Source of the DNA: Cloeon dipterum
Taxonomy: Eukaryota > Arthropoda > Insecta > Ephemeroptera > Baetidae
Assembly: GCF_949628265.1 (NCBI RefSeq)
Contig: NC_088787.1
Span: forward strand, 2,036,501 to 2,100,500
Length of the DNA: 64,000 bases
Direction of reading: 5' to 3'
The notes under the pieces are model-generated. The model worked only from the letters and a program-made list of their open reading frames with translations. It had not been told where the DNA came from and made no database searches. Positions 19,187 to 58,068 of the stretch are shown one piece after another; within the stretch, counting starts at the first letter, position 1, and each line of letters starts with the position of its first letter. The translations under genes were made by a program, and so were the position numbers.

Positions 19187-19499
19187 TTTCAAAACATTGT
19201 TGCATAACAGAGCAGTGAGAAGAGCGCCACTCCGTGACTAGTGTTAGAATAAGAAACTACGAGCAACGACCTTTCAAAGCAGTGAGGCCAGCGCCACTTC
19301 ATGGATTGTGTTCGGAGAAAAAACTACTAAATTGGCGTCATGAGCAGCTATGATGACAATAAATAAATTCAGCATAAATTGAAAGAACGGAAAAGAAATC
19401 TGAACTGTTCACCTCATTGCGGAGCAGATTTTTCCACTTTAAAGATCATTATTTTATGATATTTAAAGAGATAACCACGACATATCCAGCAATAATAAT

Positions 19500-20222: not shown

Positions 20223-20230
20223 TATCGATA
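20223..20230. promoter_or_regulatory. TATCGATA octamer (DREF-type site), gene D side
   Basis: This second perfect TATCGATA lies upstream of gene D, with a further ATCGATAT at 20424. Its placement mirrors the site on the gene C side. Confidence 0.5.
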
Positions 20231-24205: not shown

Positions 24206-24477
24206 GTGAGTAAAGCTGACTTTAGCACAATTTAGTAATGGTATGTAACTAAAAAGTTAACAACACCTAGAAACCTCCAAAACATGCAGACTTTGAAAGG
24301 ATTGCTTCAAATCAATACCATTTCCAAAATATCTCCATGAACACGTGTAGTGTTTTTTAGGTTTTCGTCTTGTGACAGTGTCATGCAGTCTGTATTTGCA
24401 TCATTGTCACTCGGGAATTTTAAAACCGCAATTGTAAAAAAAAATCAAATAAATTCTCCCAACAGGTCAGACTCAGG

Positions 24478-25812
24478 ATGGAAGACGCCACTCTTGTTGA
24501 GAAAACAAAATCCAGGTGGCTGGGAGTAAAGAAACTGAAGAATTTGGCAACGGAATCTTTTGTGATTAACTTTGATGCATTAACTCAAAAAGAAGGAGGA
24601 AACTACATCAAATCCCAACTCAGTACGTAACAAAAGCATCCCGTTAAATTAATAATAAAAGGGAAACGTATTCATTTCAGCCCCACAACTGAGGGATGAC
24701 GTGCTGCAGGAGCTGCTGAGAACAAGGCAACCTGGAGAACTAAATAAAACAATCGAGGAGTTCAACAAGTTGAAGCAGGCTTTGCGTGTTTTGATGAGCA
24801 CCAAGACAACAAAACTAGACTTGAATATCCTTATGTCATTCTTGCCAGTTCATCCATATTCCAAGGATGAGTCCTCCAAGGTAAATTTGCAAAAAAAAAC
24901 CTTGATTCTGGTCAATCAAATAAATTTCCATAGGTTCTAATGATGATCGCAACTGCTGCTCCGAATGTTCGGTATTTGAAAATAGCCAAAAAGATCCTCA
25001 ACGATTGCTTCAGCAGCGATTCCTCCCGAGACGCTTGTATTCGTTTTCTAAGTTCGCTGAAAGAATTGAGAATCTTAGAGATCGTCGGATGGGCTTATGA
25101 TAAAGTGGACGTTGCACTGTTGTGCAAGGAACTTCCCAATTTGCGTGTACTTAGCGCGAAGGATATAGCTTTAGACACCAGCAAGATGTCCGAGGAAGAA
25201 ATCAGAAATTCATTCGGACACCTTACACTTCTTGAAGATAGTTTCTTGTCGATTGGCAATATGTGCCATATTTGGAAGGTTCTACCTAATTTGGACATCA
25301 TCTGGGACGTCGAAGAAAACGGACTCAAATTGGAAGATTTCGTTAAAGACGAATATCTCCACACTAAAGGGAGAAAATATCTCGATTTCGAAACTTCCCT
25401 TTTGAATTCGAATGTCTGTGCCGATGCAGATTTCTCCGGCATCAGACACTTGAAGGTAATTGATCATTTTTTTTTGTCTCTATTAAATTAATCTAATGAA
25501 CTCCAGTTTACTTACAACGAGGAAAAGTGGAACAAGTTAAATATGACCCTGAAGGGGAAAACACCCCTAGAGAGCCTGGACCTCTTCATAACGAATCCCC
25601 CAGTGCCAGTTGATGACATTTTGCTCAAATTTGGATCAAACCTACGATGGCTTTCCATTAGCGGATCTGCTTTTCCAAGTGTTGAATTCAACCGTATTTT
25701 TGAACTATGCCCCAAGTTGGAAGAAGTCCACCTGAGTGAAGTACCTGTCGACGGAAATTCTTCCCAACCTTCCAGTTTTGTCCATCTGCAAGAATTAGTT
25801 TGTGAAGATTAA
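24478..25812 (+). CDS. F-box/LRR-like gene E, shortened
   Basis: Coding exons are 24478-24622, 24681-24880, 24934-25455 and 25507-25812, giving 390 residues. It starts MEDATLVEKTK, has F-box-like PQLRDDVLQELLR, and has LRR segments such as LKELRILEIVGW, LPNLRVLS and CPKLEEVHLSEV. Sister genes splice after the equivalent of residue 388 into one more LRR exon. Here the donor is absent and the frame stops at TAA. A decayed last exon follows. The protein may work without its last repeats, or the gene may be dying. Confidence 0.75.
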
Positions 25813-37161: not shown

Positions 37162-40100
37162 ATGACGTCGGCTCGGCTGGCTGCTGCGCTGCTCGCTGCT
37201 CTCGCGTGGGCCCTCTGCGGCCCCAGGGTGTGGGCCCTCGAGCCCCTGCTCTCGTTCGACGACGCCGCCGACCAAAAGTGCCGCCTCGACGCCGCCCTCT
37301 ACCGCAGCCAACTGCAAAACTTCACCCTCTGGGCCGTCAAAAGTGAGTCGAGAGAATTTTGGAGATTTCAACGCTTGCAATTAGTGCAGAGTTTTAATTC
37401 AAATATTAAATTAATTAATTATATATTGTGCTCAATTCGGGAATTTATTTTTAATTTTGAGCAGTGTCAATATCAATCGCGCAACTGATGTAATGAATAT
37501 TCCGAAAGAGGAAATGATTATGTAAGCGATTAAATCACGTCGACTTGTTTGCACTGATTTATTTGCCGCGAGAGAGTAATTTGCTGGCCGTGCCGTAAAT
37601 GAGCGTGAGCGAAGGAAAGCGTCTGTCGGTCCGCATGGCCAGCGAGAAAACCAGTTTTGCTCTGCATGTCGGCCGCGAGAATCTTATTTTGCAAACAACA
37701 ACTCGATCGCAGAGGCCAGCAACCCGTTCTCAGTTCTCAGCTGCCGCGAGAGCAATATAATAAAAGAAATTTGCAATTTTAAAATAAAAATAAAATTAAT
37801 ATTTTTCAGTGTACGATGCGAGTGCGAAGGCGCCCGTGGGAATTTTGGCTGGCGCCACCTTCCAGCTGGGCCACTTCGACGAGTGCCTGCAGGTGGGCTC
37901 GGAAGAGGCCCCGACGCCCGTGGTGGCGCTGCCGGCGCCGCTCAGGGCCCAGTACTGCGTGGCGCGCATCCGGCTGGAACCTGAGCAGGCCACCTACCCT
38001 GGATTCCACCGGCTCGACCGCCCGCACGCCTTCTCCCTGCAGTACGACCCCCGCGACTCCGCCTGGGAAAAACTCATGGTGCAGGACTCTAATTATTTTT
38101 TTTAATTAAATGTTATTAATTATTTTTGATCAGGTGCCCTTGGACCCGTCGAAGAAGCCGCGCAACTCGTTCCACTGGGCCACCTGCATTCCCGCCAGCT
38201 GCTCGCCGGCCGACCTGAAGGTGGCTTTGGACGCCGCCCTGCAGCCCCTGCGCCAGCGCCACGAAGTCCAGCTCAGCGTGGACGTCGATGAAAAACTCTG
38301 CACCGTCGCCCAACGAATGCCGCTCTCCACTGCGGACATCGCAGTCTTGTAAGTTAATTTTTAATTTAAATTGAAACTTATTTAAAGGCCATCTTTGATG
38401 AAATTCTCGTGTACACCAATTGATTCCTCCAAGCATGAAATTGGATATCCTTTAGATATTCAAAAGATATCTTTAAGATATTCATAGGATAGCCTTGGAT
38501 TTTCAAAGGATATCCTTGAATATTCAAAGGATATCATAGGATATTCAAAGGATATCCTTGAGATATTCAAAGGATATCCTTGAGATATTCAAAGGATATC
38601 CTAGGATATTCAAAGGATATCTTTAAAATATTCATAGGATAGCCTTGGATATACTAAGGATATCCTTGGATGTTCAAAGGATAGCCTTGGATATTCAAAG
38701 GATATCCTTGGATATTCAAAAGATATCTTTAAGATATTCATAGGATAGCCTTGGATATACAAAGGATATCCTTGGATGTTCAAAGGATGGCCTTGGATAT
38801 TCAAAGGATATCTTAGGATATTCAATGGATATCCTTAAGATATTCAAAGGATATCCTTAAATATTCAAAGGATATCCTTAAGATATACAAAGGATAGCCT
38901 TGGATATTTAAAAGATATCCTTGGATATTTGGATATTCAAAAGTTAGCCTTGGATTTTCAAAGGATATCCTTGGATATTAAAAGTATATCTGGGTATCCA
39001 AAGGTAAACCTTTGAACAAATTATGTCAATAGGTGGATATCCTCGGATATCCAACTTCTAGCTGGGCAAATTCCTCCCGAATTTCGTCAAAGATCTCCGC
39101 AAGATCTCTCTATCTTTAATAACTTCAAAATCATCCTGATTAACCCTGAAATTTTCCTTCAGAACTGTCATCCTGCTGGTTTTCGGCATTGTGGTTGCTG
39201 CCTCTTTCTTCGACATGGCCATCTACAGGCAAAGACCCGCCGGCGACGAGAGACCACTCAGTGAGCCAAAAATTGAGCCTTTATTTTAACAAAAGTTACA
39301 TTTAGAAATTAATAGCGAGAGGCCAGGAAATTCTGATGGCGTTTTCTGCCTGCACAAATCTGGAGAAGCTGAACAAGCCTGACCCGACAGACGACCTGGG
39401 CATCCTGCACGGCCTGCGCCTCTTCTCCATGGTGTTCATCATCCTGGGTCACCGCTGCCTCTTCTCCTACGGTGGGCCCTTCTTCAACCCTGAATTCCTC
39501 GAGGAGGTGCGTGTCTTCCTTGCCTGGCATAATCCTGTTCTAATCTGAATTCCAAAACAGAGGTACCGCAAGATCGAGGACATGTTTCTGCTGAACGGAA
39601 CGCTGCTGGTGGACACGTTCTTCGTGCTGTCCGGCTTCCTCACCTGCTTCGGCATCCTGCTCGAGATCCACAAGCGCAAGACGCTCAACGTGCCCATGCT
39701 CTACCTCTACCGCTGGATGAGGTCCATCTCAAACCACACCCTGACTTTCCTCAATTCTAAATATATCAATAAATCTCAGGTTGACTCCGGTCTACATGAT
39801 GGTGGTGGCGTTCTACGCGACCCTCTTCTCCAAGGTGGACTCTGGCCCTCTGTGGAAGGCCAGGGTTGGCCTCGAGCAGGAGCGCTGCGTGCAGAACTGG
39901 TGGACAAACCTTCTCTACGTCAACAACTACGTCAACGCTGACCAGCTGGTACGAGACCCTGGCTCTTTACGTGGAGAATAATCTCACCTGATTCCGTTTT
40001 GCAGTGCATGTTCCAGTCTTGGTACATCGCGTGCGACATGCACTACTTCCTGCTGGCCCCGCTGATCGTGATTCCGCTCTACAAGAACCCCAAGTTAGGA

Positions 40101-41177
40101 CTGGCGCTGCTGGCCGCCGTCACTTCCCTTTCCATTGTCATTCCCTTCGCCGTCACCTACGTCGGCGAGTACAGCGGCGTGCTCAGGGTCTACATGAGGT
40201 ACTTTGACTTCACTCTCATGGAATTTATTATATCCTGTGTGATTGCAGCCTGCTGGAGGACCCACCTTCGAACGAGGACTACTACGCGGTGTACATCAAG
40301 AGCCACAACCGGGCGGCGCCCTACTTCATCGGCATGGCGGCCGCCTACCTGTACGGCATCCTCAAACTCTCCGACATCAAAATCCCCAAGGTGATATTGA
40401 ATTTCCAATCATGTAAATAACTGACCTCCTGTCCTGCGCAGGGGGTGATGTGGGGCTGCTCTCTGGCGGCGACGGTGGTGGGGCTGACGTCCATGTTCGG
40501 CGCCTGGGTGTTCTACATCCCTGGCCGCGAGTACTTCGCCGGCGAGAACGCGGCGTACGCGTCGCTGCACCGCGTCGGCTGGGCGCTGACCGTGGCGTGG
40601 GTGGTGCTCGGCGGCTGCACCACCCGCTTCGGGGTGCTGCAACCCCTGCTGCAGCTCAACGCCTTCCTGCCCCTCAGCAGACTCACCTACTGCGCCTTCC
40701 TCACGCACGGCGCCGTCCAGCTCTACACCCTCGCCACCCTCCGACAGCCCGAGTTCATGAGTTTCCCCAAACTGGTCAGTGCGCCACGCCCCTTTTTTAT
40801 TAAATTTAAATTTTTTATTTTCTGCAGTTCTGGATGGCGTCGGGGGACATCACGATTTCGTTCATCGTGGCGCTGTTCGTTCACCTGTTTTTCGAGGCGC
40901 CCCTCGGGGCAATCCAGAAAATGCTGCTGCGCAAGAGTAAGAATTCAAAATTCAAGCCCTTTGGCGAAAAGGTTAAAAATAAATAAATTTATTTGCAGAG
41001 CCAGCTAACAGACCAAGGAACGAGAACGCACCGGCGGCGGTCCACATGGCAGACGCTCCTCCGCCGCCCCCTGTGGCCTCAACCCCTCCGCCTCCGGAAA
41101 CCTCAACGCCTCCAGCCCCGAGGGACGCTACTCCTGAAATCCCGGACAACCCTGACGAACAGCAAAGCAGTGTCTGA
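37162..41177 (+). CDS. NRF-6-like membrane acyltransferase (nose-resistant-to-fluoxetine family)
   Basis: Twelve exons: 37162-37342, 37810-38078, 38134-38348, 39163-39260, 39316-39506, 39561-39721, 39780-39948, 40005-40198, 40249-40390, 40442-40774, 40828-40936 and 40999-41177, giving 746 residues with all phases consistent. Layout: signal peptide (LAAALLAALAWALCG), then the extracellular NRF domain with conserved cysteines (GHFDECLQVG, HWATCIPASCSP). An acyltransferase-3 membrane domain of about ten helices follows, including ILHGLRLFSMVFIILGHR with the catalytic-type histidine, RLTPVYMMV, CVQNWWTNLLYVNNY and YIKSHNRAAPYFIG. The cytosolic tail is proline-rich (APPPPPVASTPPPP). In C. elegans NRF-6 acts in uptake and transport of lipids and drugs across the gut. 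Enzyme activity here is inferred from the family. Confidence 0.95.
38430..39060. repeat. Intronic minisatellite, ~21-base unit
   Basis: About thirty imperfect units of the type AAAGGATATCCTTGGATATTC fill the third intron of the acyltransferase gene. Each unit holds the palindrome GGATATCC. The array is wholly intronic and ends before the exon-4 acceptor at 39162. Confidence 0.93.
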
Positions 41178-41516: not shown

Positions 41517-44500
41517 TTACTCCCACGGATTCTTCGGTATCACGGTCGTGCACTCGTTCATAGAGTTATCTGGGAAGTGGCAGAAGACGTCGGTTTGGTA
41601 TTTGAGCTGCTCGGTGGCGGGGACGGCGTGCAGATTTGGCGTCGCACCCGGCAGCGAGACAAGCATCACGAAATCCTGTTTGGTCGTCGCGTTCATGGTG
41701 ACAGGGATCGGAATTTTAGCCCCAGGATGGGAGGGACCCAAGTCGCTGCGGCACCACATGAATTTCTTGTTCAGCTTGTCGTAAAAGCCTTGGTCCCAGA
41801 TGATCGTCAGATTCGGAGCCACTCCTTTGATTTAATTTAGCGTTTTGTTTTATTTCTTGTAAATTCTCACCTCTGATATAATTGTAGATCATTTCAAACT
41901 CCTCCTTGGTTTCCGCGTTAGGAAGCGAGCCATTCATCTCCAAACACGCGGTGATGGATGACGTGTTGTACTTAGAGAAATTAAAATGCAAATTTGAAAT
42001 ACTAAATCTGTGCTGATTAAAATACCATTTGTATGTTGATCGGTCTCAGGGTAAGAAGAGGCCGTTCAGTAAGCAGAAGCAAGCCGTTTGCTATTAAAAT
42101 AGAGTTAAGAAAATTAAAAAAGAAAAAGAATATTAAAAGGAGAAAATCGTACCTGGAATGCACAAAGAAGAATCATATTTAATAAAATTGTCAAACATCA
42201 TGCATGGCAAGTTTAGTTCGTGGTCTGCGGGAATCACACTGCTTTGCTAAAATATCGGTTGAAAAATAAATTTAAAGATCGCATCTCGTTGAAAAAGAAG
42301 GTTTATTAAGTGAGTACTTCAGAGTTGAAATCGTACAATTTCCAGAAGTGATCCAACGTTTTGGACTGAAGGAGACACACCAGGAAGTCAAACGCGAACG
42401 TTTCCTCGTTCGATGCTTTAAAAAGAATGATTTAGTGTTCTCAGAGCAAGTATAGTAGGTTAGATGGCACCACCATTCAATTACAATTTCTTAATGACTT
42501 CATATAAAGACTACATACGTACTTTTGGTTCCGCTGCATTCGTAGAGTTTGATCATCATTTCGGTGGCAAAATCAAAGTAGGTTAAGGAGAAATCATCCT
42601 GGGAGTCTTCATACATCTCATTCTGAAATATAGCCATCTTCTTCTTATCGTAATTGGCTTCGAGCGACGAGGGCGGCGAATCTATGATTTCTTGCGCTTT
42701 CTTCGTATTCTCTTCACGAATAGTGGCGTAACTTTTGAAAAGTAAAATTTCTGATTCAACAATTTCATTTTTGAAAAATGCGACCGCACTCTTGAGGTTT
42801 TGTTTCAATGTTCAATATAATTTAAACCAGGCTTCATCCTCAATTTCCTCATGAAACTAGCCGAGGATTAAAATCGACGAATTCTTTTCACAACGAGGAT
42901 GAAGCATGGTTTCAATTATATTGAACTATTTCATTTTTATTTACAGGCGTCGCAACATTTTAGACGCCATTTTAATATAAACGTGCAAGTTGGTTTGCGT
43001 CGAGTTGTACACCTGAAATTTAATTATTATTTTACGTCTAAAAACTTTTCTTTGACTTAAACCAGTCCTATGTGCTCGGCGAGGCATTGGATCATTTTCT
43101 GAAACATAGATGAGGAAGCATATAAAAATTGTAAAAATTTCTGGTTTTACTTTGGTTGCGTAGCTGGTGCGGCTCAAATCACCAGTGTTCCAAATTTTCT
43201 CGGCATCGCCTTAGAAACAAAAGAAGAATTGGAACAGCAAATATTGAAAATATAATATATACTTTCTTTAACTTTGTAATTTCTCCTGCAAGGTTGATAG
43301 TGCATCTGCGATTTGAAGCCGACTCCCATGGGCGCCTTTTTTATAAGAATAAATTAAATTCTTATCTCATTATTCAGACACAATAAACCTCGCAGATGAT
43401 CTGTTTCCTTTCCGAGCAGTCTGCCAGCGCCAGACTAGGCAAAACTGGATCCCCAAAATCAATGTAGACGCACGAGTTGTTTGCCAATCTAGGATCATGG
43501 CCCTTTTTCCAAGTCAGGTCACTTTTCAGGTAGTCGTTCAGGTAGCCGGTGCACCATCGCAATTTTCCGCGGCAAGATCCGATATCCCGCCCCGCTGTCC
43601 AGGCCTCTGTCCGAAAAGGCAGATACCCTTTCTCATTCGGGTTACTATTTTCTGATTTTTTAATTTTAAAATCGGAAAAAACTTTAATTAAAGCGTATAA
43701 CTGTAAGGATTGCCCAAGCAGTATTGCTTGTTTGGATTGTGGACTGAAAGAAGGTCCATTCCAAGGGAGCAGCACCGTTTGTAGGCCTCGTCCCAAGTGC
43801 CCTGATTTAAGTTTTTGTTTAATCTTATTGTTCATCTTGTGAATTTGTTACATATTCATTTTGCAGCTCAAGGATGCTGTTGTCGCAACATGAATGCCAA
43901 TTCCCGAAACGCCAGGGTGCTTTTTAATTGAATTTATATTTTAACTTGAAATTTTTTTAATTTCTAACTCACCAAGCAAGACTCGGAAGGGTTGCTTGAG
44001 GAACAAATCATCCTGCAGATAATTCTCAATAATTATTTCAAATATATTTATAGGTTTCACAATCGTACGTCCATAGCGCAATTAGGAAGCCCTGCGCACT
44101 CTGGCAGATCGCAGTTGCTTGTTGTGTCATCCTAATTCCAGACAAATTTTTTAAATCAACAATAAGTTTCATATTTTTGGAACCCTGATTTCGAAGGTCT
44201 TTTCCGTTCCTTGGCAGCACAAAAGCAGTTTGGAGGCACACACCGTTGTTTTGACAACCAGACCCGACACCAACCCGCCATTGGTCTCTATTTCTAAGAT
44301 CGAACCGGCCACGCAAGAGCCTCCTTGTCTGATTCCATATATTATGACATTGTTGAGCGTTCCCGTTGCGTTGTGGAGGAAGTTTTCGAAGTGAAGAGGA
44401 CATCCAGCTCGAGTCAACGCCGACCAGAAAGCCACACCCTGCAGGGCTGCAAAATATTTAAGACTGTGCCAAAAGTTTTCAAATCCATCACTATTGTTCG

Positions 44501-46683
44501 GCTTTGTGTCGGAACTTGAATTTGGCAGAAATCAAATTGTACACTTCCTCCACTATATAAGAAACAAAAAATCTGTACGAAATTCCGTTTCCGTTTGGGA
44601 GTTCCATATTCTAAACTACAGATCACAACATATAAGATAGCGCCCGCGTGCCAGTTTTTTCCTAAATTGTCTGATCGACGCCTAGAAGTAATCTTCTGTA
44701 TAGCTTATGAAATTTTAAGGGTCCACGGACGCTATTTTACGCGATTGAGGAAAACATCCACAAACCCAACGGTCAAAAGTTGAGGAATGTATCTGAAAAT
44801 CTACAGAAATCAATAACGATTAGATCAAATCAAAATCGTGTGTAGGAAACATTTCAAAATGATGTTAAAATTTTAGTCTTTGAACTTTCCCATCCAAGAG
44901 AATAACATGTAAAACCAAAATATCACGAAATTTACAAAACGATGACCCTTAAAAGTTTCCCGAATAATCCAGTTATATAGAACCCGAAATTTTGAACTGC
45001 AACAAAAATGAAAATTATAAAAATTCCTCTAGTCTGACATATTTTGTTCGCAATTTCTAAAAAAGTCTATAGGCCAGCAAAATTTTGGACACGCCACCGG
45101 AATGCTAGTTCAATTTTAGTATCTATTAAATTTGCGGATATAAAGATCTCAAATTACGAATATTTGGTGTCATGAAATGGTCGAAAAGAGAGTCAGTCAC
45201 AGCTAAAGGTTTGAGGCCCAGACTGCAGCATGTCATCCAATTTTCCTTCCAGCTCACCTTCGAGAAAACATATATTTTATATTTGTTTGAAAAACGCTTA
45301 TAAAAATACCAATTTCTCTCCAAAGAAATAAAAGAAACCGAAATTGGTTTGCTCCCACGTGCCACGGATGTTATGTTCTATACATTAAAAGTAAGAAATG
45401 TTTCAAAGAAAATTTAAAAAAAAATACCTTTTTTGATGTACGTTTTCCCGCCAATTCCTTCAAATAAGGACTCCTGCCAACAAATCATATATTTCTTAAT
45501 CATTCAAATCTAAATATTTCCCTGTACATCTTTTTTGCACTCATTTGATGGAAAAATGGGCCTCGAGCATGCTGACTAAAATCGAGAAGGTTAATATATA
45601 ATTCATTAATGAAGATCCGATTTGAAATACCTCGCACGTAAAATATGCTTTAATGGAACAATCCAAAGGTTCGAGTTGCTGGGTCGATTTTCTGTAAATC
45701 ATGCAGTAGGGCCGAGTAAAGTTGCTTAACTTCAACGTGTAGTTTAGACGAGTTTCCTTATTGTTTGGACACCAGGTAACACTGGAGCACGAATTCGTGG
45801 TTTTGTTCAGCGGATCGCTCTTTGAACACGGCGCTGCACTCGTCCACAAAAAATCTATGGCCTCTGAAACAAAGTAATAAGTCATTCAATTTATTATTGT
45901 GTTTTTGGACCTGTGTAACACTGTTGACGCGTTACCATATTCGAGCGGTCTAGGGTCAAAATACGAATCGTCGATTTTATTGTCAATTGCCAGCAGCTGC
46001 AGTTTCCGGTACAAACACGCCTCCACTGCTCTGCCGTACTCAAACTTTATGAAGGGAATATTTCAAGCAAATTCTTAGTTTCTGCATAGACACAGTTTAC
46101 TTTGTCAAAGCTGTCGAAGGTAAAGCTGAATCCTTTTTTCATGTACCTTCCAAATGGGCGGTCTCGAACGTCAAATAATTCAGTTAATGCAGCTTTGACG
46201 CAAATTAATATTGATTTTATTAATTTTCGTCCAAAATATTTACCACGCTTTCCTACGATGAAATCTTGAATAAAGTACACAAATTTTAAAAACTATTAAA
46301 TTAAAGACAAATGTTGCTAAACCTTCACTTAGGGCAGTGTCAAGCACGTTCTAATAAAAAAACATTTTACAAGTATAATTGCATAAAAAATGTGAACGAA
46401 CCCTTTTTATTCGATTGTAGTTCCTGCAAAATTGAAATGGAATCTCGGTTTTCGAACTGGAGGTCGTAGGCTTGATTGTAGTTCTAGCTGTCGATTTCCT
46501 TATCCTTTTTCTCGTGGTTTTTCTGATTGATTCCTGCCTGCGAGTAGTCGCACCCCAAACCTCTAAGGAGAAATAAAAACATGAGTCTAGTCCTGCAAAG
46601 GTAATTAGAAACAAACCTGCAACAATTACGAGGATTGAGAGCAGAAAGAGGACTTGAATAAAGAGCCTCTTCGGTAGTACCAT
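41517..46683 (-). CDS. Multi-CTLD protein with OBP-like domain, copy I
   Basis: About 27 small exons on the minus strand, from ATG 46683 to stop TAA at 41517-41519. It starts MVLPKRLFIQVLFLLSILV, a signal peptide, followed by a basic/threonine-rich linker (TTRRQESIRKTTRKR). Lectin-like domain 1 ends AYFTCE, domain 2 contains WKENWMTCCSLGLKPLAV and FENFLHNATG, and domain 3 contains AYKRCCSLGMDLLSVHN and ADCSERKQIICE. The OBP-like segment (43335-42318) holds KMIQCLAEHIGL, KLYECSGTK and FAFDFLVCLLQS. Domain 4 has GSLPNAETKEEFE and TIIWDQGFYDKL with KFMWCRSD. A 117-base foldback element sits where the intron-21 acceptor should be, so the OBP part of this copy may be mis-spliced or the gene inactive. 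It is divergent from copy II. Confidence 0.78.
42318..43335 (-). other. OBP-like domain region of copy I
   Basis: Six exons encode the segment from PMGVGFKSQMHYQPC to KLYDFNSE. Cysteines fall at QPC (C1), MIQC (C3), LYEC (C4) and LVC (C6). The C2 and C5 positions hold K and no cysteine. The motif AEKIWNTGDLSRTSYATK is typical of the OBP helix pair before C2-C3. The foldback at 42810-42926 interrupts the intron/exon junction inside this region. Confidence 0.6.
42810..42926. mobile_element. Foldback/MITE insertion in copy I
   Basis: A 117-base element has 32-base terminal inverted repeats (42810-42841 and 42895-42926, 30 of 32 matching; ends GTTCAATATAATT). Compared with copies II and III, the end of intron 21 and the first bases of exon 22 (GAACTTCGC in II) are missing at its edge, so the insertion came with a small deletion. 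It carries no coding capacity. Confidence 0.85.
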
Positions 46684-48033
46684 GTTTCGATTACACTGGT
46701 CACAACTAGGACGTTGAACGCTAGGGACCAGGGAGACAGTTTCCCGTCAGCTTGTGCTTTCGAAATGGGGCAAGAGCAGCAGTTTTAACGGAAGTGAGCT
46801 TGTGAAGCTTAGCTGCCGTTGCACACCGTGCACATCCGGACTCATATGAAACCGCAAAATGGTTTCACACAGGCTTCCTGTTAAAAGAGAGCAAAACTAG
46901 GCAGGAGAGCTAAAACCTATGAAAATTTGCAGAGAGCAGACCAGAAAGTTTATGCAGTAATTTAATAATTACATACTTGTGTCATGACAGTCAGGAAAAT
47001 CTCAGGGAGGGCAGATTGCTTTGAGACTAAAATATAGCAAAGAAAGGTAAATTGAGAAATTTTCCATTCCTGCATGCTATCTTTGATCGTCTCTAGTTAC
47101 CCTTTTGGCAGACTTACATGCCTTAAAGATTCTTGCATTATTTGATTGAACTGATTCTCCACTTTCACCGATTTCAAGTTCAAAAAGTTCACTCAGAATT
47201 CTGCTTTTTACTGCCGTCAAATTGTCCAAACTGATTACAGACAGCGAGACCTGAGATAAAAAGAGATCCTTATATTTTCGCCACTAGCTGCCATGTTTCG
47301 TTTTCGCACTGTTTAAAATGATGTTGAACGCAATAGAGACCAGAGAGAGCGTTTTCCTGTCTGCGCTTGGGCTTTTGCTGAAACATGGCGAGCGAGAGCA
47401 GTAGTTTTCACGGATGCTATATTGTTACGCTTCGTTGATTTTAAGCGCGCACACCGCATATATGATGCACATCCGGACCACTACCATCACGTCCAGCACA
47501 AAGTGGTTTCGAAACTGGCTTTCTGTTCGAAGAGAGCATAATATATATATGGAGAATACAATTGTAAATTTTGCCTGAATGTCATGGTGATGGCCGGTCA
47601 GGATTGTTCCAACTGTGTTAGTGACGGGACGCCAACCTACAATGGTACAAAACTACTTTTAGGAAACAATTTGGCTTCTCAACCCTCATTTCTCTCCCTT
47701 TCCAAGAGCATCGAGCCCTCCCTAGGAAAGTATAATTATTAAACTAATGTGAATACAATCTAATCTCCGCAAATTTTTAAATCTAAGCTACGCGATGCTC
47801 TGCGGTTAACTTCTTCTAAAAGCAAGTCTGTTTTGAACCCACTTAGTGCTGGACGTGTCGAGAGTTTCTATGAGTCCGGATGTGCACACATAAAGGCAAC
47901 GAAGCGTAACAAGAGCATCCGTGAAAACAGCTGTCGCCCCATTATTTCGGCAAAAGCACCAGCTGACAGGAAACATTCGCTCTGGTCGCTTGGTGTTGAC
48001 CATCATATATTTTGAACAGAGCGAAAACGAAAC
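46684..48033. promoter_or_regulatory. Divergent upstream region of lectin-OBP copies I and II with an extra promoter relic
   Basis: Three related promoter segments are present. One reads toward copy I (46684-46880), one toward copy II (about 47830-48033), and an orphan at about 47290-47540 reads leftward. The shared words are CACATCCGGA, GCGTAACAAGAGCATCCGTGAAAAC and GCGAAAACGAAACATGG with their complements. The orphan's ATG at about 47292 has no coding exons behind it, implying a lost fourth copy. Confidence 0.7.
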
Positions 48034-51000
48034 ATGGTGCTGGCGAACAGGCTCTTTATTCAAGTCCTCTTTCTTCTCACACTCCTCGTAGTTGTTGAAG
48101 GTAATTTAAAATAATTTCAATGCAGGAATGGACTCGCACGTTCTTTTCCTTAGAGGTTTGGGGTGCTAAAACTCGCAGGAAGAAATGGACCTCTAAAGCC
48201 CTGAAAAATAAGGTAGAGAAATTGACAACTAGAGCTACAGTCAAGCGAACGACCACAATTCCAAAAAACGAGGGTCCATTTCAATTTTGCAATAACTACA
48301 ATCGGATAAAAAAGGTTAGTCCATAATTTTATTATCATTGCCTGGTAAAATATGTTATTGTTTATAAAATTAGAGCGTACAAGACACGGCAATAAGTGAA
48401 GGTATATACAGCAACATATTTTATCTTTTTTTTTTTAATTTGTAAACCATATTTAAGATATCATCGTAGGAAAGCGTGGTAAATACTATTTTTAGGAAAA
48501 AAATAACATACTAATCATAATCAATTTGCGTCAAAGACGGAATAACCGAATTATTTGACGTTCGAGACCAGCAAATGGGAGGATACAGCAAACAAGGCAC
48601 AAAAGGATTGAGATATACCTTTGACGGCGCTGAAACAGTTAACTTCGAATGCTGAACCTTAAAAATGAATTGATATTTTCCCTTCAAAAAGGTCGAGTAC
48701 GACAGAGCGGTTGAGGCGTGTTTCTACCGGAAACTGCATCTGCTGGCGCTCGACACGCCTGATGAAATCGCCAATATATATTATGTCTTAGGGACGCCTC
48801 TATATGGTAACGTCTACATTAATTACAGAGGTTCGAAAAAACTATAATCTTCCTTCAGAGACCGTAGATTTTTTGTGGACGAGTGCGGTGCCGTGTTCGA
48901 AAAGCGATCCGCTGAACAAAACCACGAATTCGTGCTCCAGTCTCACCTGGTGCCCAAACAATGGGGAAACTCGACTTAAATACACGTTGAATTTAAGCAA
49001 ATTTTCGCGGCCCTACTGCATTATTTACAGAAATAAGAATAAGCGATTCGAACCTATGGATTGCGCGTTTAAAGCTCATTTTTCATGCGAGGTAATTCAA
49101 TTTGGAGCTTCCTCAAATAATTATAATGTTATTATCCTTCTTGAATTTAGTCGGAGTGCTTGAGGCCCATTTTACCGCCACAGAATGAGTGCCAAAAGGA
49201 TGTGAGTGCGATTTTAATTAATTTGAAAGACTAATGAAGAAATCAAATTTCGGCAGGGGTCGTTATTTGAAAAAATCGGCGGAAAAACCTACCTCAAAAA
49301 AGGTCCTTTTAGAATTTTCCGCAGAAACATTTCTTAATTTACTTAAAACAGAACATGAGATCCGTGGAACGTGGGAGCAAAACGAATTAGGCTTTTATTT
49401 CTTTGGAGAGAAATTTGTATTTTTCATAGAGATTCCTAAAACAAATTAAATATATATATTCTCGAAGGTGAACTGGCAGGAAAATTGGATGACATGCTGC
49501 AGACTGGGCCTCAAACCTATAGCTCTGATTAACAATATTTTGGACCATTTGGAAACACCGAATATTAGTACAAATCTTTAAAAAATCTCTTTCACATGTC
49601 GCATATATCACTAGAATTTAATTTTTGAAATTGGTTCCTTTGGGGGTGAATTTTGGTTTTGGACAATCGCAGTAATCGATTGGCACCCTGACTAAATACC
49701 CTGAAACCCGATAGTTGCAGCCATGCAGGGTGTGGTTTACTGGACGGCAATGACTCGAGCTGGATGCCATCTTCACTTCGAAAACTTCCTCCACAACGAA
49801 TCGGAAACTTTCGTCTTTGCCATCTATGGAATCCGGAAAGGAGGTTCTTGCGTAGCTGCTTCGATCAGAGATCCAAAATCCGCGGAGGTGGTAGGACCGA
49901 GTCTGGCAGTGAAAACCAAAAACTGCGCCTCCAAACTGCTGTTGGGCTGCGAAGGAACGGAACAGACCTTCGAAATCAGGGTTACAAAATTATAAAACGA
50001 TCATTGTAATGATTTAAAATAATTTATCTTTAATCAGGATGTCCCTAGCAACTGCGATTTACCAGAGTGCACAGGGCTACCCGATTGCGTAATGAAAGTA
50101 CGATAATGAAACCTATAGATATATTCGAAAAATTAATGAGATTATCTGCAGGATGAATTCTTCCTCACGCAACCCTTCCGAGTCTTGCTGGGTGAGTTGG
50201 GAATTAAAACCTTCAAATGAAAATATTAAATCAATTAAAAGCACCTTGGCGCTTCGGGAATTGGCATTCATGTTGCGGCAACAACATCCTTGAGCTGCAA
50301 AATGAATATGTAACGAATTTACACTAATAACTATGGAATTTAACGAAATCTCACACCAGGGCACTTGGGACGAGGCTTACAAGAGGTGCTGCTCCCTTGG
50401 AATGGACCTAATTTCAGTGCACAATTCAGTCAAGCAAGACTGCTTGGGCAATCCTTACAGTTACGCTTTAATTAAAGTTCTTTTCCGATTTTAAAATTTA
50501 AAAAATCAGAAAATAGTAACCCGAATGAGAAAGGGTATCTGCCTTTTCGGACAGAGGCCTGGACGGCGGGGCGGGATATCGATTCTTGCCGCGGAAAATT
50601 CCGATGGTGCACCGGCTACCTGAACGACTACCTGAAAAATGACCTGACTTGGAAAAAGGGCCACGATCCGAGATTCTCAAACAAATCATGCGTCCTTATT
50701 GATTTTGGGGATCCAGTTTTGCCTAGTCTTGCGCTGGCAGATTGCTCGGAAAAGAAACAGATCATCTGCGAGGTTTATTGTGTTGAATAATGAGATAAAA
50801 ATTTAATTTATTTTCACAAAAGGCGCCCATGGGAGTCGGCTTCAAATCGCAGATGCACTATCACCCTTGCAGGAGGAATTACAAAGTTAAAGATAGTATG
50901 TATCTTTATTTTCATATATTTTCTGTTTCAAATCTTTTTGTGTTATAAAGGTGACGCCGAGAAATTATGGAACACTGGTGATTTGAGCCGCACCAGTTAC

Positions 51001-52603
51001 GCAGCCAAAGTAAAATCAAATTTAAGTTCAAAGTCGATATATAATAATGCTAAAATGCAGAAAATGATTCAATGCGTCGCAGAGCACATAGGACTGGTTA
51101 ATTCGAAGAAAAGTTAGAGATTAATCAATAATTTGATCATTTTAAACCCAAGGTGTACAACTCGACACAAATCAACCTGCACGCTTACCTGAGATGGATG
51201 TCCAGAATGGTGGATCCACTGTAAATAAAAATCAAATTGTTGAATCATAAATTATAAACTTTTCAAAAGGAACTTCGCTTTGAAACAAAAAGTGAAGGAT
51301 GACCAAGAAACGTTCTTCTCGTCATTCGAAGCCCAGTTTTCTGGTAAAGAGATCATCAATACAATGAAGAATGTATTGATTAATGACGCACTGGACGATT
51401 TACTCTCTGCCCACTTTGATTTTGCGACCGAAATGATGAAAAAACTCTACCAATGCAAAGGAATCAACTGTATGTATACTTCCGGTAGTCAGTATGGGCC
51501 GAAAACTATTTTTTGTTGTACCAAAATTATAGTTAAGAAAACTTAAAAGCATTTCTTCAAGAAGAATATCCTTGCTTTTTTTCTCAACCGATTTTGGATT
51601 CGAAAAAACTCTTTCTTTTGTCCCATAATATTTGCGAAAAACCGTTACAAGATTATAACGGTTAAACCAAGAAATTTTAAATGTGAAAACAAAAAACAAT
51701 CTTTTTAAAGGTACGAACAAGGAATCGTTCGCGTTTGACTTCCTGATGTGTCTCCTTCAGTCCAGACAGTTGGACCGCTTCTGGAAATTTTACGATTTCA
51801 ACTTGGAAGTATTTCAATGTCAACCTTTTTTTGTCAAAGTGACCAATAAATTTATTTTTCCACCGATATTTCAGCAACGCAGTGTGATGCCCGCGGACCG
51901 CGAAATAAACTTGCCATGCACGATGTTTGACAATTTTATTAAATATGATTCGTCTTTGTGCATTCCAGGTACGGTCTTTTCTTACATTTATTCTTTATCT
52001 AATTTAATTTACTTTTAAAAGCGGGTGGCTTGTTTCGGCTGAATGATGCTGCTTTTCTTACCCAGAGTCCGATCAATTTAGAAATGGTTATTTTCGCATA
52101 AATTTAATGCATTTTCATTTTTCTTCATATTAAAAAAAATCTGCAGTTCAAATCGTCTTCTTTCACCGCGTGTTTGGAGAGAAATGGCTCGCTTCCTTAC
52201 GCGGAAACCAAGGAGGAGTTTGAAACGATCTACAATTATATCAGAGGTGAGAAATTACAAGAAATAAAACCAAACGCTAAATTAAATCGAAGGTGTGGCT
52301 CCGAATCTGACGATCATCTGGGACCAAGGATTCTACGACAAGCTGAACAAGAAATTCATGTGGTGCCGCAGTGATTTCATCCCCTTCGGACCTGGGGCTA
52401 ATATTCCGATCCCTGTCGCCGTGAACGCGACGACCAAAGAGGACTTCGTGATGCTGGTCTCGCTGCCGGGTGCGACGCCAAATCTGCACGCCGTCCAAGC
52501 CACCGAGCAGCTCAAGTACCAAACCGATGTCTTCTGCCGCATTCCAAAATCCGTCGTGGTCGAGTGCTTGACCCTCAACCCAGAAGAGACGTCGGAGTAC
52601 TAA
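48034..52603 (+). CDS. Multi-CTLD protein with OBP-like domain, copy II
   Basis: ATG 48034 to TAA 52601-52603, about 27 exons, all by-eye junctions GT-AG with consistent phases. Order: signal peptide (RLFIQVLFLLTLLVVVEG), basic linker (ATVKRTTTIPKNEG), then lectin-like 1 (EYDRAVEACFYRKLHLLALD to HFSCE). Lectin-like 2 runs from GGKTYLKK and NWMTCCRLGLKPIAL to LLLGCEGTEQTFEI. Lectin-like 3 runs from NWHSCC, AYKRCCSLGMDLISVHN and RWCTGYLNDYLKND to ADCSEKKQIICE. The OBP-like segment is 50823-51808, and lectin-like 4 has ACLERNGSLPYAETKEEFE and FMWCRSDFIPF. N-glycosylation sequons are frequent. No membrane anchor follows the signal peptide, so the protein should be secreted. A role in binding small ligands and glycans together is inference from the domains. 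Confidence 0.82.
50823..51808 (+). other. OBP-like domain region of copy II
   Basis: The segment runs PMGVGFKSQMHYHPC, then GDAEKLWNTGDLSRTS, KMIQCVAEHIGL, HFDFATEMMKKLYQC, KGINCTNKESFAF and LMCLLQS. C1, C3, C4 and C6 are present and C2 is K. An extra cysteine (GINC) lies five residues after C4, closer to C4 and farther from C6 (12 residues between) than a usual C5, which has 8. Confidence 0.6.
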
Positions 52604-53295
52604 TTGCATTAAAATTCGAATTGGGATTTAATTTGTCAACATTTAATTATATCTGGAAACAAAAAATTCGTGTTTTGTTTGTTCCGTTCTTCTCTATCTA
52701 GTTTGTTTTAATTGCGTAATTAATTCGGATCCGGAATCATCCTTTAAAAATTAATTAATTAATTACATAACTTGTAATTTAAGAAGGACCATCAAAATCA
52801 TCCAGCAGCATCTTCAAGCATGTTTCATTTCCCTCTAAATAAATTATTTTCTAATTAAAACATTATTTCGCATCTGTTTTCAGAAGGTAATACCTAGGAC
52901 CTTTCGATTTTACGTCTTCAAATTTTACAATTTAAAATAGGAGACTTAATAGTCCTTCATAATCGTTTGCACCATAAGCTAAAATAATGAAAAAAAGTAC
53001 ATGCAATAAAAATTTTAAATTAGTCTAGTATATAAAGGGGTGATTGCTGAGAGTGTCGTTCTCCATATTTTTGCGCTCTTTTCACAGAAAGCCTGTTTTG
53101 CGCTGGACGTGATGCTGATTTTATATGAGTGCGGATGTGAATGGTGCGCGCGCATAAATGCAGCGAAGCGTAACAAGAGCATCCGTGAAAACAGCTCTCG
53201 CGCCATTATTTCGGCAACAGACGCAGCTGACAGGAAACACACTCTCTGGTCCCTAGCGTTCAACGTCCTAGTTTTGAACAGTGGGAAAACGAAAC
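52604..53295. promoter_or_regulatory. Spacer and promoter of lectin-OBP copy III
   Basis: AT-rich 3' flank of copy II, followed from about 53085 by the family promoter with GCGTAACAAGAGCATCCGTG, CATTATTTCGGCAACAGAC and GGAAAACGAAACATGG just before the start. The same words lie upstream of copy II and in the copy I/II divergent region. Confidence 0.65.
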
Positions 53296-56200
53296 ATGGT
53301 ACTACCGAAAAGGCTCTTTATTCAAGTCCTCTTTCTGCTCTCAATCCTCGTAATTGTGGCAGGTTTGTATCAAATTTCTAATGCATAACTGGAAACCGTT
53401 TTTTTTTCTTTAGAGGTTTGGGGTGTGACTTCTCGCAGGCAGGAATCAATCAACAAAACCCTGAAAAAGAGGACAAGGAATTCGGAAACTATAACTACGG
53501 TCAAGGAAACATCCCCCAGTTCGAAAACCGAGAGTCCATATGAATTTTGCAGAAACTATAATCGAATAAAAAAGGTTGGTTTTATAATTTTATTCCAATT
53601 CCCATTTAATTGTTTTTTTAATTAGAACGTTCAAGACTCAGCACTAAGTGAAGGTTTATCAATATTTTGCTTTTATTATTTGACAGTTTTTTTTAACTTT
53701 GAATACCTTATTCAAGATTTCATCGTAGGAAAGCGTTGTAATTATTATTTTTTACGTAGAGAAATAACCTAATCATAATTAATTTATCGTCAAAGCTGCA
53801 TTAACTGAATTACTTGACGTTCGAGATCGGCCGTATGGAAAGTATAAGAAAAAAGGATTCAGCTTTACCTTCGACAGCATCGACCAAGTAAACTGCATAT
53901 ATTTAATGCTGAAAAATTAACTCGATATTTTCCCATCAAACGTTAATATAGGTTGAGTACGGCAGAGCAGTGGAGGCGTGTTTGTACCGGAAACTGCAGC
54001 TGCTGGCAATCGACAAAATCGACGATTCGTATTTTTACACCAGGCCGCTCGAATATGGTAACGTCGACAATTACACACAGGTCCAAAAACACGATGAATT
54101 AATTGAATAATATTACCTTGTTTCAGAGACGATAGATTTTTTGTGGACGAGTGCAGCACCGTGTTCAGAGAGCGACCCGCTGAACAAAGCTACGAATTCG
54201 TGCTCCAGTGTCACCTGGTGTCCAAACAATGGGGAAACTCGACTTAACTACACGTTGAATTTGGGAAAATTTACTCGGCCCTACTGCATGATTTACAGAA
54301 ATTCGACGAAGCAACTCGAACTTTTGGATTGCTCCATTAAAGCATATTTTTCGTGCGAGGTAATTCAGTTCGGAGCTTCTTTAACAAATTATAAAACCCT
54401 CTGGAACTTAGTCAGCGTGCTCGAGGGCGGTGATTCCCTTACAGAATGAGTGCAAGAAAGATGTAAATGGGAAGTATTGGATTTGAATATGATTAAGGAA
54501 AAATGAAATTCTTGCAGGAGTCCTTATTTGAAGTAATTGGCGGAAAATCATACCTCAAAAAAGGTAACATTTAAATTATCCATATGGAAAAATTCGTAAC
54601 TTTTATATCAGAACATGAGATCCGCGGCACCTGGGAGAAAACCAAATTTGGTTTTTATTATTTCCTTGGAGAGAAAATGGTAAATTTATAATGATTTCTC
54701 AAACGAATATAAAACATGTTTTCTCGAAGGTGAACTGGAAGGAAAATTGGATTACATGCTGCAGACTGGGCCTCAAACCTATAGCTCTGACCAAATCTCT
54801 TCTGGACCATTTCAACAGATCGAATATCCGTAACAAAATCTTTCCAAAATGTATCATAGCACTGCTATAGAGTTAAATTTTCGACGTGGCCAATCAATTC
54901 CAGAGGGTCATCGGTCATACGTAAATATCGTTACTCTGGCGGCCATTTTGTGACACTAGCGCCACAAGAACGTCAGCGACCAATCCGAGATAGCAGCGCC
55001 ACATTTTTAGCTTTCGTTAACTGCCGCTGCTGTCTCGATCTTGCAAATCAGAGAGGGCCGTTCGCTTATATGATTGGTCGGTGCACTCATTAAATAGATA
55101 GTGGCAATATTGTCTCACTTGTCTCACAGCGTCTCGGCTTCATATAAACCTAATTCGGAGCTTCACGCTCAGCAGTTATCGATTGGCACTGTCTACAAAC
55201 ATCTTTTTGCAGCCGTGCAGGGTGTGGCTTTTTGGTCGGCGTTGACTCGAGCTGGGTGTCCACTTCACTTTGAAAACTTCCTCCACAACGCTTCGGAATG
55301 GCTCGAATCATTCAAAAATGTCACAATTTTTGGAATCCGACAAGGAGGCTCTTGCGTGGCTGTTTCGATCAAAGAAACGGGGGGAAAGGAGGTCAAGTCG
55401 GGTGTGGCAGTGAAAACCAACGTCTGCGCTTCCAAACTGCTGTTGGGCTGCCAAGGAACGGAACAGACCTTCGATATCACGGTGACAAAAATATATATAA
55501 TTTTTTCAAATTAATCTATCTGGTATAAAAGGATTACTCAAGCAACTGTGATCTGCCAGTTTGCACAGGGCTTCCCGATTGCGTCATTGAAGTACGATTA
55601 AGAAATTTAGATAAATTGAATTGATTATTGAAATTTCTTCTGTAGGATGAAATTTTCCTCAAGCAACCCTTCCGAGCTCTGCTCGGTGAGTTGGAAATTT
55701 AGTCTTACAAACAAAATTTTTAATTAAATTAAAAGCACCCTGGCGTTTCGGCCATTGGCATTCATGTTGCGACAGCAACATCCTTGAGCTGCAAACTGAA
55801 TATGTAATGAATTTACACTAATAACTATCGGATTTACAAAATTCTTAAATCAGGGCACTTGGGACGAGGCCTACAAGAGGTGCTGCTCCCTTGGAATGGA
55901 CCTCCTTTCAGTCCACAATCCAGCCAAGCAATACTGCTTGGGCAATCCTTACAGTTCAGCATTTTTAAAGTTCTTTTCAGGAATTAAAATTTGAAAAATC
56001 TCAGAAAATAGTAACCCGAATGAGAAGGGGGAACTGCCTTTTCGGACAGAGGCCTGGACGGCTGGGCGGGATATCGATTCCTGCCGTGGACAATTGCGAT
56101 GGTGTACCGGTTACCTGAACGACTACCTGAAAAACGACCTGAATTGGAAAAAGGACCACGATCCAATATTGGCCAACAACTCGTGCGTCTACCTCGATTT

Positions 56201-58068
56201 TGGGGATCCAGTTGAGCCTAGTCTGGCGCTGGCAGACTGCTCAGAAAAGAAACAGATCATCTGCGAGGTTTATTGTGTCTCAATAATGGGATAAGTATTT
56301 TAATTTTGTTTTCAAAAAGGCACCCATGGGAATCGGCTTCAAATCGCAGATGCATTATCACCATTGCAGGAAAAATTACAAAGTTAAAGAAAGTATTTGT
56401 TGTTATATTTTCTATATTTGCTGTTCCAATTATTACTTTTTGTTACTAAGTTGATGCCGAGAAAATTTGGAACACTGGTGATTTGAGCCGCACCAGTTAC
56501 GCAGCCAAAGTTGAACCAGAAAAAATGTCTAAATTCGATAAAAATCTTAATTCTCTGTTCCAGAACATGATTCAATGCCTAGCAGAGCACATAGGACTGG
56601 TTGAGTCAAGATAATATTATTGAGATTAATTAATAATTTAATCGTTCAAACCCAGGTGTACAACTCGACACAAATCAACCTGCACGTTTACCTGAAAATG
56701 ATGGCCAGAATGTTGCATCCACTGTAAATAATAATCAAACTGTTGAGTCATTAATTTTACTTTTCAAAAGTGACGTCGAGTTAATGAAAAATGTGAATGA
56801 ACATCAAATGTTCAAAGTGAAAGAAAACAAAGTTATGCTGCCCTCGTCATTCGAAGCCAATTACGGTAAGAAGAAGATAAAAGTATTTGAGGGAGACATG
56901 ATAGAAGACGGCGCGGATGAATTTTCCTTGGCCCACTTTGACTTTGTCACCGAAATGATGAACAAACTCCAAGAATGCAGGGGAATCAAAAGTATGTAAT
57001 CTTGCTGAAATCAATGGGAAATTAGGCAGTAGATGGCACCATTTTTGGTGGCACAACGAATTTAAGTTTCAATATCTCTTATACCATTTCTTTCTTGGTA
57101 TAATAGTACCAAAATTTTAAATCCGATTTCAATAAATTGTAAATGAACGGTGGTGCCATCTTCTGCTGACTCTGCGGAAACTTAAACATTCAATTTAAAG
57201 AATCGAACGAGGAAACGTTCGCGTTTGACTTCCTGGTGTGCCTCCTTCAGTCCAAGGCGGTGGATCACTTCTGGAGATTTTACGATTTTAACTTTGAAGT
57301 AAATCGTTCAACCTACTGTTATGCCTACGAGACTTTTAAATTTATTTTTCATCCGATACATTAGCAAAGCAGTGTGATTCCCGCGAACCACGATCTTAAC
57401 CCGCCGTGCATGGCGTTTGACGAGTTTTTGAAACATAATAATTCGTCTTTGTGCATACCACGTATGGTTTTCTCTTTTACTTTCTTATTTCTTTTTTAAT
57501 TTTCCTTTAAAAGCGAATGGCTTGCTTCTGCTGACTGAATCTGGACCTTTTATCACCCTGAAACCACTCAACATAAAAATGGTATTTTTACACATATTCA
57601 GTATTTCAATTTTTTATTTTAATTTCTCTAGTTCAAAACGTCATCTTTCACCGCGTGTTTGGAGAAGAGAGGCTCACTTCCTTACGCGCAAACCAAGCAG
57701 GAGTTTGAATTGATCTACAATTATATCAGAAGTGAGAAAATTGCAAAAAATAGAACAAAACGCTAAAATTAATCAAAGGTGTGGCTCCGAATCTGACGAT
57801 CATCTGGGACCAAGGCTTTTACGACAAGCTGAACGACAAATTCATGTGGTGCCGCAGCGACTTGGGTCCCTCCCATCCTGGGGCCAAAATTCCGATTCCT
57901 GTCGCCGTGAACGTGACGACCAAAGAGGATTTCGTGATGCTCGTCTCCCTGCCGGGTGCGAAGCCAAATCTGCACGCTGTCCCTGTCTCCGAGCAGCTCA
58001 AGTACGAAACCAACGTCTTCTGCCGCTTCCAAGATTTCGTGGTGAAACAGTGCTCGACCAAGGTGTGA
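53296..58068 (+). CDS. Multi-CTLD protein with OBP-like domain, copy III
   Basis: ATG 53296 to TGA 58066-58068. Twenty-seven exons read by eye; the first twenty are 53296-53362, 53414-53574, 53626-53653, 53717-53737, 53796-53887, 53952-54057, 54127-54359, 54412-54462, 54518-54563, 54612-54679, 54730-54829, 55213-55481, 55532-55591, 55646-55685, 55736-55803, 55854-55953, 56005-56267, 56320-56392 and on. Order: signal peptide (FIQVLFLLSILVIVAG), linker, lectin-like 1 (AVEACLYRKLQLLAID to YFSCE), lectin-like 2 (WKENWITCCRLGLKPIAL to LLLGCQGTEQTF), lectin-like 3 (YKRCCSLGMDLLSVHN to KKQIICE), OBP-like 56320-57300, and lectin-like 4 (ACLEKRGSLPYAQTKQEFE to YETNVFCRF). The frame is open throughout. 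It is in tandem behind copy II. Secreted; binding role inferred. Confidence 0.85.
56320..57300 (+). other. OBP-like domain region of copy III
   Basis: Exons give IGFKSQMHYHHCRKNY, SDAEKIWNTGDLSRTSYAA, NMIQCLAEHIGL, VYNSTQINLHVYLKMM, FVTEMMNKLQECRGIK, SNEETFAFDFLVCLLQ. The pattern of C1, then about 35 residues to C3 inside a xMIQCxxEHIGL motif, then C4 (QEC-RGIK) and C6 (FAFDFLVC), matches insect PBP/GOBP domains that lack the C2-C5 pair. Confidence 0.6.
57025..57168. mobile_element. Small MITE in intron 22 of copy III
   Basis: About 145 bases with short imperfect terminal repeats (GCAGTAGATGGCACCA at 57026 and TGGTGCCATCTTCTGCTG ending 57168). A related end (AGATGGCACCACCATTCA) occurs in the equivalent intron of copy I near 42463, so the element family was active around these genes. 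Confidence 0.6.

Follow-up and report, generated by a model that had tools for sequence, protein, structure and literature searches.

A 64,000-nucleotide stretch of the Cloeon dipterum genome (contig C2, positions 2036501-2100500; "the window" throughout) holds three homologous copies of a gene that is predicted to encode a secreted protein with an odorant-binding protein (OBP) domain set into an array of C-type lectin-like domains (CTLDs). Judged from its sequence, each copy is almost certainly one gene with one fusion product. The copies belong to a predicted lectin-like/OBP fusion family in baetid mayflies, and its architecture is new as far as our searches reach. We consider the fusion gene family well supported by its open frame, the domain order, 28 open gene models, and the coinheritance of the parts. 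The preliminary description of this DNA had proposed an OBP domain between lectin domains 3 and 4 of one secreted product; this arrangement is supported by 28 of the 29 loci found in the genome, by the intron at the CTLD3/OBP junction, by a match to the Pfam family PF01395, and by one protein of Neocloeon triangulifer. It had also named no known lectin-OBP fusion, and our literature searches for one likewise yielded no description.

Three copies with one continuous reading frame

Copy I lies on the minus strand, and copies II and III on the plus strand. Their longest common stretches measure 283-471 nt, with 83-92% identity. Splice models were obtained by aligning the copies to each other and selecting splice sites for preservation of the reading frame; the exon 17 donor was set by family agreement. 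Each copy comprises 27 exons with GT-AG ends at every intron and zero in-frame stops. The models reproduce the three copies at the positions first given for them, including the start of exon 18 at 56320. The continuous frame from the signal peptide to the last lectin domain, previously joined by hand in copies II and III, held in both, and copy I has the same frame. The features are as follows.

41517..46683, minus strand: copy I, complete 27-exon gene, 959 amino acids (spliced model)
48034..52603, plus strand: copy II, complete 27-exon gene, 960 amino acids (spliced model)
53296..58068, plus strand: copy III, complete 27-exon gene, 960 amino acids, stop included (spliced model)
53296..53574, plus strand: copy III, exons 1-2, putative signal peptide (hydrophobic N-terminus) and Thr/Lys-rich linker
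53626..54359, plus strand: copy III, exons 3-7, CTLD-like domain 1, C212-x14-C227-x7-C235 (profile comparison; no Pfam match)
54412..55481, plus strand: copy III, exons 8-12, CTLD-like domain 2, C372-x23-C396-x7-C404 (hhalign to Neocloeon N2 and N3)
55532-55591, plus strand: copy III, exon 13, Cys-rich spacer
55646..56267, plus strand: copy III, exons 14-17, CTLD 3 (Lectin_C E = 8.9e-4 when searched alone, below cut-off)
56268..56319, plus strand: copy III, intron 17, CTLD3/OBP junction, 52 bp
56320..57298, plus strand: copy III, exons 18-23, predicted OBP domain of the minus-C type, residues 592-776 (PF01395; cysteine pattern)
56771-56991, plus strand: copy III, exon 22, most of the variable OBP insertion
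57365..58068, plus strand: copy III, exons 24-27, CTLD-like domain 4 (exon plan 68-100-290, resembling CTLD2 and CTLD3)
50823..51808, plus strand: copy II, exons 18-23, predicted OBP domain (exon plan, cysteines)
51875..52603, plus strand: copy II, exons 24-27, CTLD-like domain 4 (exon plan)
42318..43335, minus strand: copy I, exons 18-23, predicted OBP domain (exon plan, cysteines)
41517..42246, minus strand: copy I, exons 24-27, CTLD-like domain 4 (exon plan)

Read from the N-terminus, the product would thus consist of a signal peptide, a Thr/Lys-rich linker, CTLD-like domain 1, CTLD 2, CTLD 3, a minus-C OBP with a fast-evolving insertion, and CTLD-like domain 4. A spliced aligner run with a family profile, which included copy III's own model, returned identical copy III exons and ended 2 residues short. 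The three proteins are 70-77% identical, with ratios of nonsynonymous to synonymous substitution rates (dN/dS) of 0.50-0.58. A chance origin of the open frame is excluded, because the frame is kept in three copies and 25 of 26 further loci are open with the same order. For the whole-protein Pfam search, the first database search, and tblastn, the copy III query was a 963-residue model with three extra residues at exon 17.

The exon plan is itself repetitive. A trio of 68, 100, and ~263 nt with phases 1-0-1 recurs in CTLD2 (exons 10-12), CTLD3 (exons 15-17), and CTLD4 (exons 25-27). The OBP exons 18-23 of copy III measure 73, 59, 36, 68, 221, and 98 nt and are flanked by two phase-0 introns. 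Phase 0 at both OBP ends fits an insertion of the OBP module between CTLD units; the entry point would have been a phase-0 intron that separated two CTLD exon cassettes produced by duplication. Intron 11 (54830-55212 in copy III) measures 153 nt in copy II, 383 nt in copy III, and 711 nt in copy I, a spread that suggests insertions.

The OBP domain

The whole copy III protein matched PF01395 (PBP_GOBP) with E = 3.9e-5 and 24.2 bits against a cut-off of 22 in the hidden Markov model (HMM) search suggested for this family; the domain of exons 18-23 alone gave E = 1.2e-6 and 29 bits. Among the 28 OBP domains of the Cloeon family, 27 matched at E ≤ 1e-3, the best at 7e-8. Database proteins agreed, with matches at E ≤ 1 in 12 of 13; P0009 reached only E = 0.031 (14.8 bits).

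Classic OBPs carry six cysteines, paired C1-C3, C2-C5, and C4-C6. In copy III, C1, C3, C4, and C6 lie at residues 607, 640, 739, and 757; we take these four to be the minus-C cysteine positions. C1 and C3 are present in all 28 Cloeon OBP domains and C4 and C6 in 26, so that 26 of 28 carry the minus-C four-cysteine pattern. The six classic cysteines are found in none of the 28, since C2 and C5 are replaced by other residues throughout. At two loci, L035 and L036, C4 and C6 are both gone (to Ser and Phe), which leaves only C1 and C3. This joint loss fits the C4-C6 pairing, and the two genes amount to a natural experiment on how OBP disulfides pair. PMC5034290 describes minus-C OBPs, which carry four cysteines. 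Exons 18-23 very probably adopt the OBP fold.

The last two cysteines of the region (PPC and SLC) were considered as OBP cysteines and ruled out, as both lie in exon 24, the start of the CTLD4 unit. A genome scan by exon for PBP_GOBP gave no match in the window, where the OBP exons are short. Its sole match (L009, G000:C3:3625495-3625665) lies on contig C3 outside the 29 loci; it is possibly a standalone OBP and has two stops within the match.

A gene family of at least 28 open models

A tblastn search of the Cloeon dipterum genome (190 Mb, 10 contigs) with copy III gave at least 103 exon matches (47 of 608 candidates scored), which were grouped into 29 loci, 26 of them outside the window. Window copies included, 25 loci lie on C2, one on C1, one on C5, and two on C4. 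All but one of the outside loci (25/26) yielded open models of 26-29 exons with all five domains (coverage 0.91-1.0 each) and no stops, where open means a frame without internal stops. With the window copies, 28 of the 29 loci are thus open models with one domain order. L030 was left out: the locus boundary truncates its model, CTLD1 is missing, the frame contains one stop, and the junction is interrupted by a gap of 891 bp. The preliminary count of three copies is accordingly correct for the window and far too low for the genome. The family may exceed 29 loci, as P0009 showed no good fit to any of the loci compared.

Pairwise identity among the 28 models ranges from 49 to 95%, and a hydrophobic N-terminal stretch is present in 26 of the proteins. 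The exon plan of the window copies recurs in the 25 other loci with small length changes (three values missing), with exons 16 and 17 fused in L037 and L051. Of 378 gene pairs, 187 have a synonymous distance (dS) of 0.03-0.6; over these pairs, which are not independent of one another, the median dN/dS was 0.48 for the whole protein, 0.50 for CTLD1, 0.46 for CTLD2, 0.21 for CTLD3, 0.56 for CTLD4, 0.39 for the OBP core, and 0.75 for the OBP insertion. The distance matrices of the OBP and lectin parts correlate at 0.94, a value reached by none of 999 permutations. The OBP and lectin trees disagree in places, for example in the position of copy II.

A relative in Neocloeon and the CTLD-like domains

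The first database search with copy III returned 13 proteins, all from Cloeon dipterum. A protein search gave 14, namely 13 from Cloeon and P0019 of Neocloeon triangulifer, the sole relative outside Cloeon; as this search requires shared five-residue words and bounded lengths, absence elsewhere is not implied. The proposed survey of other insect proteomes has yielded one relative of the same architecture and none further by shared five-residue words. Cloeon and Neocloeon both belong to the Baetidae.

P0019 (LOC132204352) is an uncharacterized protein of 1037 residues. It carries Lectin_C at 614-736 (E = 2.4e-5), followed by PBP_GOBP at 744-849 (E = 4.9e-9). Its OBP matched the profiles of solved OBPs (best 6.9e-4), and P0019 itself found several solved CTLDs (E-selectin, mosGCTL-6, and Mincle). 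In BLASTP, the alignment of P0019 to P0009 covers the CTLDs and extends into the OBP, with 25% identity. The succession of a Ser/Thr-rich region, a CTLD-like region, two CTLDs, an OBP, and a last CTLD-like domain is that of the Cloeon proteins. P0019 differs from them in its OBP, which carries all six classic cysteines but not the long insertion, and in its annotated N-terminus, where inspection by eye reveals no clear signal peptide.

CTLD1, CTLD2, and CTLD4 of the Cloeon proteins were assigned on the basis of cysteine spacing, the common exon plan, and profile comparison, and the canonical C-type lectin cysteine framework served as the reference. CTLD1-3 keep C1, C2, C3, and C4 with a C3-x7-C4 spacing, and one of the 28 models has a gap at C3 of CTLD3; CTLD4 is without C2-C3. 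Lectin_C (PF00059) scored over its cut-off for CTLD3 in P0009 and P0012, as it did in P0019. In hhalign comparisons, CTLD3 matched Neocloeon N3 at 1.8e-14, and CTLD2 matched N2 at 1.3e-10 and N3 at 3.4e-11. The best partner of CTLD1 was N1 (E 4e-4, probability 34%), and CTLD4 reached only 0.21 with N4. When N1, N2, and N4 of P0019 were tested singly against Lectin_C, none matched.

Sugar binding by C-type lectins usually relies on EPN or QPD together with WND in the binding loop. WND occurs in none of the 28 models and QPD in one, at residue 24 outside the CTLDs; EPN occurs in six, only at residues 886-931 in CTLD4. CTLD2 of P0019 (residues 403-566), unlike that of Cloeon, retains a QPD motif, so that a loss of the sugar site on the lineage leading to Cloeon is possible. 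With 150 of 375 candidates scored, a genome scan by exon for Lectin_C found at least 106 places, all of them outside the window.

Observations against a single fusion product

Several of our results weigh against the reading of each copy as one lectin-OBP gene. The first group concerns the identity of the domains. The Lectin_C search suggested in the preliminary description recovered only CTLD3 in copy III, and this below the cut-off (E = 0.078 in the whole protein, 8.9e-4 alone), whereas CTLD1, CTLD2, and CTLD4 tested singly gave no match. The full-length Cloeon profile found no CTLD among solved structures at E ≤ 1. CTLD1-3 of Cloeon are best described as lectin-like domains without a sign of the usual sugar site. 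For the Cloeon OBP, the profile search of the PDB gave 5dic as the sole OBP match, with E = 0.014 (12 sequences) or 0.058 (28 sequences), which is weak when taken alone; a second stretch of 5dic places C4 and C6 in register past the insertion, but at 0.4 and 2.0 bits. By hhalign, the Cloeon and Neocloeon OBPs showed no significant similarity, whether the insertion was kept or removed.

The second group concerns the gene models. The program that produced those of the non-window loci can bridge a fault with an intron, and 9 of these 25 models lack a Met in the first exon. Four of the nine chromosome-scale NCBI models (P0014, P0015, P0017, and P0018) start within the OBP, and P0014 (LOC135937733), which corresponds to copy I, covers only the OBP to CTLD4. 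In P0012, CTLD3 is joined to CTLD4 without an OBP.

Starts within the OBP would be expected if there were two adjacent transcription units, one gene for CTLD1-3 and a separate gene for OBP-CTLD4. P0014, P0015, and P0018 indeed use an in-frame Met of exon 18 or 20 as their start and extend to the end of CTLD4, and P0017 begins in exon 19. However, the junction intron (intron 17) measures 45-65 bp in all 28 models, and the promoter of a second unit would therefore fall in a coding exon of CTLD3. The exon 18 Met is missing in several paralogs (APSG, APGG, GPSD), and the Met of P0014 and P0015 is not conserved. A product starting in the OBP has no hydrophobic leader by eye, yet its cysteines are conserved. 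Among the database proteins returned, moreover, the junction is crossed by five of the nine chromosome-scale NCBI models (P0001, P0008, P0009, P0011, and P0016) and by eight of nine on shorter contigs, which we take as a second assembly. P0015 belongs to L035, where the customary donor of the lectin/OBP junction reads GC instead of GT and the aligner took a nearby GT; this change may have split the P0015 model. A product that starts anew at exon 18, with which the preliminary description had contrasted its single transcript, is thus annotated in four of nine chromosome-scale models, but these starts come without a leader or a conserved Met. We regard two transcription units as very improbable.

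Alternative splicing is a more serious competitor. Exons 18-25 begin and end in phase 0, and the OBP cassette could therefore be included or skipped, giving lectin-OBP and lectin-only products. Besides the phase 0 at both cassette ends, this is suggested by P0012 without and P0013 with the OBP, which appear nearly equal by eye over their common parts, and by P0009, which is named isoform X2 and belongs to a cluster of five members. P0001 (LOC135936017) equals the copy III model apart from the absence of exons 15-16; the skip is in frame and removes the first half of CTLD3, and it reflects either alternative splicing or an annotation error. All these cases are, however, annotated models and not seen reads, and the ends of P0012 and P0013 are also disturbed. 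We give inclusion or skipping of the cassette somewhat less than an even chance. In our view the split NCBI models most plausibly result from faulty annotation; exon skipping is the alternative to be taken seriously.

Comparison with known proteins and possible function

Known OBPs are small, single-domain, soluble carriers. The Cloeon domain resembles insect minus-C OBPs in its PF01395 score over the cut-off in copy III, in having C1, C3, C4, and C6 in order with C2 and C5 missing, and in the predicted signal peptide. It differs from insect OBPs by an insertion of ~60 residues and by its place within a multi-CTLD protein of 959-960 residues. With arthropod multi-CTLD secreted proteins (PF00059), the family shares a Lectin_C match of CTLD3 in several members, the C2-C3-C4 spacing of CTLD1-3, and the repeated exon cassette; it departs from them by the OBP between CTLD3 and CTLD4 and by the absence of EPN, QPD, and WND from CTLD1-3 in the 28 models.

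Taken as a whole, the data are probably best explained by a single secreted modular CTLD-OBP protein that would have arisen by module insertion and would capture ligands at a surface. A small hydrophobic ligand would be carried in the helical cup of the OBP, while the CTLD array, whose domains 1-3 are without the usual calcium/sugar motifs in Cloeon, would fix the OBP to a protein or glycan surface or build oligomers; capture would then take place at a surface rather than free in the lymph. We propose such tethering of a ligand by an OBP on a CTLD array only tentatively. The role could be chemosensory or immune, and a diversified set of recognition proteins is suggested by the high copy number and the variable insertion.

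Alternatively, the domain may have OBP ancestry and no OBP function, and serve as a spacer, held by disulfides, within a secreted protein of structural or adhesive type, such as an egg coat, silk-like, cuticle, or gut lining protein. The long insertion, the loss of C2 and C5 (in two genes of C4 and C6 as well), the lack of lectin motifs in CTLD1-3, the weak matches to solved structures, and the dN/dS of 0.66-0.82 that the window copies show over the entire OBP domain are all consistent with a spacer. On the other hand, the median dN/dS of the OBP core (0.39) is lower than those of CTLD1 (0.50), CTLD2 (0.46), and CTLD4 (0.56), and a beetle minus-C OBP is reported in passages of PMC5034290 to bind ligands with a larger pocket. 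On balance, we judge a mere spacer unlikely.

C-type lectins are common immune proteins in insects, and the family might likewise be an immune repertoire, whose many copies with a variable insertion bind or mark microbes, the OBP binding microbial lipids. The 28 open models with 49-95% identity would suit such a role, as would the insertion, with its median dN/dS of 0.75 and values above 1 in 3 of the 12 pairs listed, taken without a significance test. Yet CTLD3 is the most conserved module and not the variable one, and the canonical sugar motifs are missing from CTLD1-3. An immune repertoire appears quite improbable to us.

The surface-capture reading can be extended to a new secreted recognition class in baetid mayflies, with an OBP cup bearing a variable insertion on a four-CTLD scaffold, encoded by about thirty genes. 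Its members would trap waterborne chemicals while held at a surface, perhaps that of the nymph gills, and would account for part of the largest insect OBP expansion known. This extension is speculative, and we would not expect all of it to hold. According to passages of Almudi et al. (2020; PMC7250882), Cloeon dipterum has 191 OBPs, 25 of them gill-specific, and the set was found with Pfam-based HMM profiles. As such profiles were used in the same species, some of the fusion genes may be among the 191, as far as these passages tell; the word "lectin" is absent from the main text of that paper. The fusion family may thus bear on the count of 191 and on the claimed chemosensory function of mayfly gills. 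A conserved and expanded family with an OBP in a lectin-like array would change ideas of OBP function in water.

Other features of the window

A long tandem array occupies 9130-11922, with units of 65, 91, and ~157 bp that start with AAACTCTGCT and contain the inverted-repeat motif AGCAGAGT. A minisatellite at 38443-38990 comprises ~23 copies of the 21 bp unit GGATATCCTTGGATATTCAAA, with ~2.5 kb between it and the 3' end of copy I. Three open reading frames of 182-184 residues at 14439-25491 are similar by eye, and two of them show a weak LRR_14 match below the cut-off; they are perhaps exons of a leucine-rich-repeat gene family. On the minus strand, an exon at 28626-29477 matches the MTPAP-like central domain (E = 2e-10) and, narrowly under the cut-off, PAP_assoc, which is indicative of a non-canonical poly(A) polymerase-like gene. 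An Acyltransferase 3 domain (E = 2.5e-8) at 39999-40391 adjoins copy I and belongs to a gene that is presumably nose-resistant-to-fluoxetine-like.

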